A stretch of DNA of 64,000 nt from Halococcoides cellulosivorans (GTDB lineage: Archaea > Halobacteriota > Halobacteria > Halobacteriales > Haloarculaceae): positions 372,001 through 436,000 of the forward strand of contig NZ_CP028858.1 of assembly GCF_003058365.1 (NCBI RefSeq), written 5' to 3'. Positions within the stretch are counted from its first letter, which is position 1. Every line of letters begins with the position of its first letter. Both the position numbers and the translations under genes were made by a program. Shown piece after piece: positions 44,191-46,967 of this stretch. The notes beneath the pieces were generated by a model. It was not told the DNA's origin and did no database searches. It was given only the letters and a program-made list of their open reading frames with translations.

Positions 44191-44233
44191 CGACATCACA
44201 TGTCGTAATATATGTCCGATAAATTATTCAGTA
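44191..44233 (+). promoter_or_regulatory. Operator-promoter element upstream of the xylanase gene
   Basis: A perfect dyad CGACAT-CAC-ATGTCG (44191-44205) is followed 10 bases later by CCGATAAATTATT, a BRE/TATA-like box. The same dyad and spacing recur at 46066, downstream of the gene. The position immediately before the BRE/TATA suggests control by a dimeric regulator. Transcription would begin near 44250, leaving a leader of about 130 nt. Confidence 0.6.
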
Positions 44234-44381
44234 TGGGTCGCCATTAATTTTACAGACGACGGTCGCAGGTGTCGTCCGAGGTCGGGGCGTGTCAGCGCAC
44301 ACGGCGGCGGTCGGGCCCACGGTGGCCGCTGTGACGCCCACGAGGGGGACGTCTCGGACGACCGCGGCCACAGTCGAAATC

Positions 44382-45902
44382 ATGACTCACGACTCGTCCG
44401 AACCCACGGCAGAGGCGCACCGACAGCCAGCAATCGACGACGCGGCGATGGACCGTCGTACCTATCTGAAAGCCGTCACGGGCGCGGCGGCGGCTGGGGT
44501 CGGCCTCGGCGCGCTGGCTTCGCCTGCGGCGGCGATCACCGAAAACCAGACCGGGACCGACGACGGCTACTTCTATTCGTTCTGGACCAACGACCAGGGG
44601 TCGATCACGATGACCCTCGAAGACGGGGGGTCCTACAGTACCGAATGGTCGAACACGGGCAACTTCGTCTGTGGGAAAGGCTGGGAGACCGGCGGCCGGA
44701 AGGACGTCGAGTACACCGCGGAGTTCAACCCGCAGGGCAACTCGTATCTCTGCCTCTATGGCTGGACGACCGACCCGCTCGTCGAGTACTACATCATCGA
44801 GGACTACGGTAACTACAAACCGGGCGACGCCCGCCAGGGATCGTTCGAGACCGACGGGGGCACCTACGAAATCTACACCTCCGAGCGCGTCGAGAAGCCT
44901 TCGATCGTCGGGACGGCGACGTTCACGCAGTACTGGTCCGTCCGGCAGAACTCTCGGACGAACGGGACGATCACGACGGGGAATCACTTCGACGCCTGGG
45001 AGGACCACGGCATGCCGATCGGTGACCACGACTACATGATCATGGCCACCGAGGGCTACCAGTCCAGCGGCAGTTCGTCGGTGACCGTCGGCGCCACCGG
45101 TGGGACCGACCCGACCACGACGACGCCGGTCGACACCCAGACCCCCGGCGAGCAACGCCCCTTCGACGGGAGTCCGATCACGATTCCCGGGCGGATCCCC
45201 GCCGAGGCGTTCGACGAGGGTGGGCCAGGCGTTGCCTACAGCGACGCCACCACCGAGAACGAGGGTGGCGACTACCGCACCGACACGGCAGTCGACGTGC
45301 GCGGGAGTTCCGATGGGACGGGCTACGCGGTCGGCACCATCGAATCCGGCGAGTGGCTCGAATACACGGTCGACGTCCAGGAGGCCGGGACCTACGCGCT
45401 GGAGGCGCTCGTCGCCTCTGATTCGGGCGGTGGGGCCTTCCACCTCGACGTCGACGGTCAGGACGTCTCGGGCACCGTCGACGTGCCCGCGACCGGCGGG
45501 TGGTCGACCTGGGAGACCGTCTCCGGCGAGGTGACGCTCTCGGCCGGCGAGCAGGTCATCCGGATCGCCATGGACGAGTCGTGGTGGGACCTCGATTACG
45601 TCGATCTCACACTCGACAGCGCGACACCGACCACCACGGAGCCGACACCGACCACCACGGAGCCGACGCCCACGACCACGCCCGAGACCAGTCCCGACTG
45701 GCCGGCGGGCGCGACCGACCCCGACGGCGACGGCCTGTACGAAGACCTCTCGGGCGACGGGGAACTGAACTTCCCGGACGTGAACCGTCTGTTCCAGAAC
45801 ACCGACTCGACGGCGGCACGGAACAACGCCCAGTTCTACGACTTCGATGGCGACGGCAGCGTCGGCATGCAGGACGTCCTCGCGCTGTTCGAACTCGTCT
45901 GA
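44382..45902 (+). CDS. Secreted GH11 endo-1,4-beta-xylanase with CBM6 and dockerin
   Basis: The 506-aa protein starts with a Tat signal ([12 protein letters not shown] at 25-26) and a likely cleavage near residue 51. Residues about 54-237 are a GH11 xylanase: NFVCGKGW, the nucleophile Glu135 in [12 protein letters not shown] and the acid/base Glu224 in [17 protein letters not shown]6 module follows (about 268-411: [30 protein letters not shown]), then a Thr/Pro linker and a dockerin (about 445-506) with two EF-hand loops starting [15 protein letters not shown] and [12 protein letters not shown]. It cuts xylan outside the cell. A start at 44448 is possible but the ATG at 44382 includes the usual Tat leader. 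Confidence 0.92.
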
Positions 45903-46065
45903 TCGCGACTCCTGGCCACCGACGAAGCTCTTACCTGACGGTCGGGTGAGTGGACGCCGCCGCACCCGGCGAGTCGCTTTGCGACACTCGATGTCGATTA
46001 TGACTCCCTTTTTCGCCGCCGAATGCCGGTGAGAGTGGTCACTCACATACACTTCGAAAACTGTT

Positions 46066-46107
46066 CGACATCACATGTCGTATAATAAATCCGATAATTT
46101 TATGCGA
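46066..46107 (+). promoter_or_regulatory. Second copy of the xylanase operator-promoter element
   Basis: The dyad CGACAT-CAC-ATGTCG is identical to that at 44191 and is again followed by a CCGATAATTTTAT box with the same spacing. Unlike the first copy it is not followed by a recognisable gene on the plus strand. Confidence 0.55.
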
Positions 46108-46731
46108 GCGATGTACGTGATTCCGTCTTGTCGATGGTCGCAGCCGGCGGTCACGGCGACTGCCCGACGGCGAGGCACCACCACCGATCAAGGGGGCCAC
46201 ACGGGAGGGGGCTGGACACCGCCGGAGGGCTGTACGACGAGGGGGGGGGTGGTTCGACTGGTCACCACCCGACTCAACCGTCGAACGCGACCATCGGACC
46301 ACATTCGTCTGATTGAGACACCATTCGAGACGACACGACGTGTCGCATCGACAGTCGATGCGGAGGCGATTGCCGCCGTACGGACCTGCAAACGGCCGCC
46401 GCTCGGCGCTGGCGGTCCGGACGAGTGCACTTTTCTGGAGTCGTCGCCCTCCGTCGACGACGGTCAGTTCGGCCGCATCACTCTCGAATTTCTATCCGAT
46501 CAGGTCGCGCTCGTCCACGCGACGATCGCTCAGCGCTTTCGAATCGGGGCCGTCCCGGGACCGTCACTGGACCTCGGCGTCCAGTTGACGTTGCGCCCGA
46601 CGGCGCCCGTCGAACTGCGGGTCAGGGAACGGTAGCGTCGACGGCCACATCGGTCGACGGACTTCGCGCAGTCCACAGCGAGCCTGGCTTGCGAGGAGTC
46701 CCGAGCAGGAAAACGGTGGTCTATCGCCTTC

Positions 46732-46800
46732 CGGATTTGAACCCTGGCAGGCGCGCGCAGCGAACGGAGTGAGCGAGCACGTCTGCCTCCGGTTCAAATC
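46732..46800. repeat. Inverted repeat of tRNA T-arm-like sequence
   Basis: CCGGATTTGAACC followed by GGCAG, and later CTGCC followed by CGGTTCAAATCCGG, form long arms around a loop of about 32 nt. Both arms hold the GGTTCAAATCC signature of a tRNA T-arm, but neither side completes a cloverleaf. It lies about 90 bp from tRNA-Phe and may be a remnant of tRNA-associated integration or duplication. Confidence 0.5.
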
Positions 46801-46893
46801 CGGTCGGCGTCGTTTCTTCGACGGACCGCTCGCTCTGTGAAGTCGTTCACCCCGTTCACGACTCGCATCGCTCGCGGTTGCGGTCTCAGAAAG

Positions 46894-46967
46894 TGCCGCC
46901 TCCCGGATTTGAACCGGGGACAGCTCGATCTTCAGTCGAGTGCTCTCCCAGTCTGAGCTAAGGCGGC
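46894..46967 (-). tRNA. tRNA-Phe (anticodon GAA)
   Basis: A 74-nt cloverleaf on the minus strand: acceptor GCCGCCT with AGGCGGC, D-arm AGCTCAGACTGGGAGAGC, anticodon stem CTCGA/TCGAG with loop CTGAAGA, and T-arm CCCGGTTCAAATCCGGG. Anticodon GAA reads phenylalanine codons. No intron and no encoded CCA. Confidence 0.96.

Follow-up and report, generated by a model that had tools for sequence, protein, structure and literature searches.

The locus raises the question of why a single xylanase gene of the halophilic, cellulose-degrading archaeon Halococcoides cellulosivorans carries what looks like the same operator-promoter element on both of its sides. In the window (the whole stretch of DNA that was analysed, 64,000 nucleotides), the perfect dyad CGACATCACATGTCG (CGACAT-CAC-ATGTCG) occurs without mismatch at 44191-44205 and at 46066-46080, in both cases on the forward strand and 1,875 bp apart, and the heptamer CCGATAA lies exactly 10 bp 3' of each copy (44216-44222 and 46091-46097, respectively). 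The earlier note had described the two elements as identical; this holds for the dyads (15/15) and for the CCGATAA boxes (7/7), which share distance and strand, and fails for the surroundings, since only 6 of the 10 spacer positions, 14 of 60 upstream positions and 22 of 55 downstream positions are the same. That the copies lie on either side of a xylanase gene was confirmed, the gene between them coding for a GH11-CBM6-dockerin protein. The features of the locus are the following:

44191..44205, + strand: operator dyad CGACAT-CAC-ATGTCG, copy 1, 5' of the GH11 xylanase gene (exact match, one of three exact genomic copies)
44216..44228, + strand: BRE/TATA-like box CCGATAAATTATT, 10 bp past the dyad (from its sequence; spacing equal at the three copies)
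44248..44381, + strand: 5' leader predicted for the GH11 transcript, about 135 nt (its start inferred from where the TATA lies)
44382..45902, + strand: GH11 xylanase gene, with Tat-like signal, CBM6 and dockerin domains (Pfam)
45982..45996, + strand: imperfect dyad CGACACTCGATGTCG, one mismatch to CGACATN3ATGTCG, 84 bp 5' of copy 2 (significance unproven)
46066..46080, + strand: operator dyad, copy 2, orphan (exact match)
46091..46103, + strand: BRE/TATA-like box CCGATAATTTTAT of the orphan promoter (from its sequence; equal 10-bp spacing)
46477..46635, + strand: remnant of a cytochrome P450 gene, last 52 codons and stop (tblastn; ends at the P450 C-terminus)

The longest open reading frame of the xylanase gene begins at GTG 44289, and ATG 44382 is the preferred start. 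Its product matches the Pfam models for GH11 (E 1e-76) and CBM6 (E 1e-24), and the dockerin match, of 18.9 bits, is below the cut-off of 22.9. The catalytic part has a single match in its own genome. The predicted leader folds more strongly than shuffled sequences (z -2.5), and the imperfect dyad at 45982-45996 may represent an auxiliary site.

In order to be meaningful, the element should be rare, and the earlier note had proposed a genome-wide search for the dyad plus box. The exact 15-mer occurs three times in the genome (2,723,120 bp, single contig), two of them within the window, against about 0.29 occurrences expected there with up to two mismatches. The composite CGACAT-N3-ATGTCG-N10-CCGA is found three times in perfect form and 35 times with three mismatches, and never with one or two; hence, it is a discrete element rather than a common word, and it is not found commonly at random places. 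Dyad forms with two or more mismatches are common, as expected if a short palindrome recurs by chance in a GC-rich genome; however, the gap between the perfect composites and those with three mismatches, together with the fact that two of the perfect composites precede xylanase genes at an equal distance from the promoter box, refutes this reading, whose probability we regard as practically nil. Outside this genome, searching 58 genomes of relatives with up to one mismatch retrieved scattered matches, most of them within genes, and the box follows none of them; the composite search of other genome contigs gave one match, in Nocardia, which was taken as chance, and nine matches to the bare 15-mer were found in viral contigs. 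According to these data, the element is best read as the operator-promoter of a putative xylanase regulon, consisting of a 15-bp palindrome, 10 bp and a BRE/TATA box.

The third copy lies on the minus strand (C1:2270648-2270662), in an unrelated locus 1.85 Mb from the window copies. Here, too, 10 bp separate the dyad from the box, which reads CCGACAA, so that the spacing to CCGAYAA is constant over all three genomic copies, the BRE/TATA call being made from the sequence alone. On the same strand, 3' of the dyad, lie a GH10 xylanase gene and then GH43 and GH5 genes. The only further exact copy thus precedes another glycoside hydrolase gene, as the earlier note had suggested checking; since all three copies are thereby placed, the other four GH10-like matches in the genome have no perfect copy. 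The predicted GH10 leader (about 210-220 nt) folds more strongly than shuffled sequences (z -3.6), and a perfect hairpin, GGGCGCTCGAAATCGAGCGCCC (L007 8397-8418), is located at its end, directly 5' of the GH10 start codon.

Moreover, a gene for a TrmB-family regulator (protein P0001) stops about 30 bp 5' of the third dyad, and an imperfect second dyad, 36 bp away from the third copy, falls within the end of this gene. P0001 harbors an N-terminal TrmB DNA-binding domain (PF01978, E 5e-14, 52.2 bits against a cut-off of 25.6) and a C-terminal effector-binding domain (PF11495, E 3e-32, 112.4 bits against a cut-off of 22.2), and it scores 82.5 bits with the haloarchaeal TrmB equivalog NF047392, whose cut-off is 500. 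Judging from these scores, P0001 is a member of the TrmB family and not the NF047392 orthologue. Probing the genome contigs with P0001 did not retrieve any relatives.

From the proximity of its gene alone, P0001 is the likely binder of the dyad. The TrmB-family motifs of Thermococcales, Halobacterium and Haloarcula activate transcription when they lie 5' of the BRE/TATA and repress it when they lie 3' of the BRE/TATA or overlap it (PMC4158304, PMC10817205). The palindrome studied here lies 5' of the BRE/TATA and is therefore, by this published rule, a predicted activator site; activation by the dyad-bound protein is the most likely mode of control, to the extent that position and a box assigned by its letters can indicate it. 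In such a scheme, P0001 sitting on the palindrome would help to recruit the transcription machinery when the right sugar signal is present, and the regulon would comprise the GH11 gene and the GH10 gene with the GH43 and GH5 genes after it.

It is also conceivable that the operator is real and its binder a different protein, either one of the other two TrmB paralogues, whose genes adjoin GH5/GH10 genes, or a regulator from another locus, and that the site may be a repressor site. P0001 has two TrmB paralogues (45-47% identical), the recognition helix being almost the same in all three, and the position rules have exceptions (PMC10817205); on the other hand, the P0001 gene is the only TrmB gene adjoining a copy of the dyad, and the sampled promoters by the other two paralogues have different palindromes or none. 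We consider this alternative somewhat unlikely. The genes of the two paralogues (L101 11671-12693 and L102 9812-10855) adjoin secreted GH5 genes, the former being also near GH10-like genes. At the former locus, a perfect palindrome, TAATTTATG-N11-CATAAATTA (L101 9107-9135), is located 5' of the GH5 gene next to the TrmB paralogue, and it represents a candidate operator of this adjoining paralogue.

If the element is an operator-promoter of xylanase genes, the copy at 46066, which starts 164 bp past the GH11 stop codon, has to be explained. The earlier note had envisaged a lost or unrecognised gene past 46107. No clear coding signal was detected in any frame of 45903-46892, where the only one, a weak one, falls in 46360-46600. 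An open reading frame spanning 46075-46635 was rejected as a real gene, because it begins 5' of the site where transcription is predicted to start and has a non-coding composition. In a six-frame search of 293 genomes of the order, its codons 135-186 matched the C-terminal end of haloarchaeal proteins about 460 residues long. Two of these proteins were read over their full length, and one, when scanned, fits cytochrome P450 family models with scores under their equivalog cut-offs. Direct alignment (tblastn) over 46477-46632 gave 50% identity over 52 residues (E 1e-9). The last 52 codons of the reading frame are thus a P450 remnant, which lacks the heme-binding region and everything 5' of it; elsewhere in the genome there is one P450 gene above the Pfam cut-off. 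The claim of a lost or unrecognised gene is therefore borne out insofar as there is no convincing gene behind copy 2 and a truncated P450 is present there. The wider proposal, that of a site shared by a regulon together with such a gene, also gains support from the third copy, placed before the GH10 gene and beside the TrmB gene.

A guide to what a lost gene may have been comes from other Haloarculaceae. In three genera of the family (g2, g13 and g21), GH11 genes are arranged in tandem or in small clusters, and in the pairs with both tails matched, a gene with a CBM6 module is paired with one that has a RicinB module. In these three genera, both genes of a pair have a common promoter element a short distance 5' of the start codon, with 15-18 of 20 bp in agreement; shuffled sequences agree at about 13 on average and at 14-16 at most, and L107 only equals its shuffle maximum. 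These elements are genus-specific, their sequences being quite unlike each other. The Halococcoides GH11 belongs to the CBM6 type, and the tree places it with g2 at a support of 86/84, which is under the starred threshold. The order in g2 is the CBM6 type followed by the RicinB type (several g13 genomes have the reverse), and the orphan promoter lies approximately at the site of the second GH11 promoter in g2. The surroundings of the tRNA-Phe (46893-46967) are not syntenic with those of the relatives; hence, an empty or a full site cannot be compared.

On this basis, we can depict a scenario in which copy 2 once drove a second, tandem GH11 gene, and a fairly recent deletion removed that gene together with the 5' part of the neighbouring P450 gene, thus orphaning the promoter. 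Loss by deletion of a second xylanase gene, whose former existence we infer, and of most of the P450 is the probable course of events. Against it stands the fact that nothing is left of the supposed second GH11 gene: no GH11 similarity was detected in 45903-46892, although a clean deletion would leave none either. Copies 1 and 2 have the same dyad and box but a diverged spacer and diverged flanks, which implies either a recent loss or a copy 2 that is still used; judged by this pattern, copy 2 probably kept its function until recent times.

The latter option would make copy 2 the working promoter of an unrecognised small RNA or small protein produced in response to xylan. A perfect dyad and box amid diverged surroundings are what selection would maintain, the TrmB of Haloarcula directly controls two proteins of less than 50 residues (PMC10817205), and an open reading frame of 60 codons begins at 46134, shortly 3' of the predicted start site. 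Nevertheless, 46120-46360 has no codon signal in any frame, an RNA spanning 46122-46300 would fold only slightly better than its shuffles (z -1.3), the Rfam scan returned nothing above the gathering score except the tRNA, and the DNA matches listed within the family fall in a dispersed repeat near 46725-46803, with none in 46070-46720. We regard a working copy 2 as unlikely. The fuller version, i.e., a xylan-responsive TrmB with its own operator, apart from the central-carbon TrmB, and with the site at 46066 driving a small regulatory RNA or small protein by the xylanase gene, appears quite doubtful.

The repeat mentioned above is an 81-nt hairpin (46725-46805, z -5.5). At its ends, GGATTTGAACC and GGTTCAAATCC, it matches the T-arm of the tRNA-Phe next to it. 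Of the 146 Haloarculaceae genomes searched, most contain similar copies, often several each, and two more are present in the Halococcoides genome; the hairpin matched no family in Rfam. It is possibly an undescribed dispersed repeat.

The other explanation put forward by the earlier note was that insertion or duplication of the xylanase cassette near the tRNA-Phe had left the two copies behind as direct repeats. Their equal orientation on either side of the gene, close to a tRNA and to a truncated P450, would agree with it. It did not stand up to the comparison of the two flanks, where the only common word of at least 12 bp is the 17-bp operator, spacers and surroundings being different; furthermore, the third copy precedes another xylanase gene at a distant, unrelated locus, and no 5' part of a P450 was detected 5' of the cassette. 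The latter result also led us to discard an insertion of the cassette into the P450 gene, which predicts the N-terminal part of the P450 at that place. An origin as direct repeats is very improbable. Overall, we favour, as rather probable, the joint reading of a xylanase-regulon operator that would be bound by a TrmB protein and act in activation, with copy 2 orphaned by the loss of a second GH11 gene.

A non-exhaustive search by title and abstract found no published work on how haloarchaea switch on their secreted xylanases. An operator present at three sites only, beside a candidate sugar sensor, offers a small regulon that lends itself to direct testing; the orphan copy illustrates how such a regulon may erode. 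The data also suggest that, in this cellulose specialist, TrmB paralogues have diverged into switches that each serve a different plant polysaccharide.

The closest known system is the haloarchaeal TrmB regulon (VNG1451C of Halobacterium salinarum and TrmB of Haloarcula hispanica), whose regulators, like P0001, combine a TrmB DNA-binding and an effector-binding domain and whose activated promoters have the palindrome 5' of the BRE/TATA, as here (PMC4158304, PMC10817205). The Halobacterium motif is TACT-N7-8-GAGTA and its targets belong to central metabolism, whereas here the motif is CGACAT-N3-ATGTCG and the targets are secreted xylanases. TrmBL1/Tgr of Thermococcales, which recognises the TGM (TATCAC-N5-GTGATA), is likewise a sugar-responsive family in which the position of the palindrome relative to the BRE/TATA sets activation or repression (PMC4158304); it differs in sequence, spacing and targets, and P0001 is just distantly related to it. 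Lastly, the tandem GH11 loci of other Haloarculaceae consist of paralogous xylanase genes with the same genus-specific element near the start codon; in those organisms both genes have been kept, whereas Halococcoides has one gene and an extra promoter.
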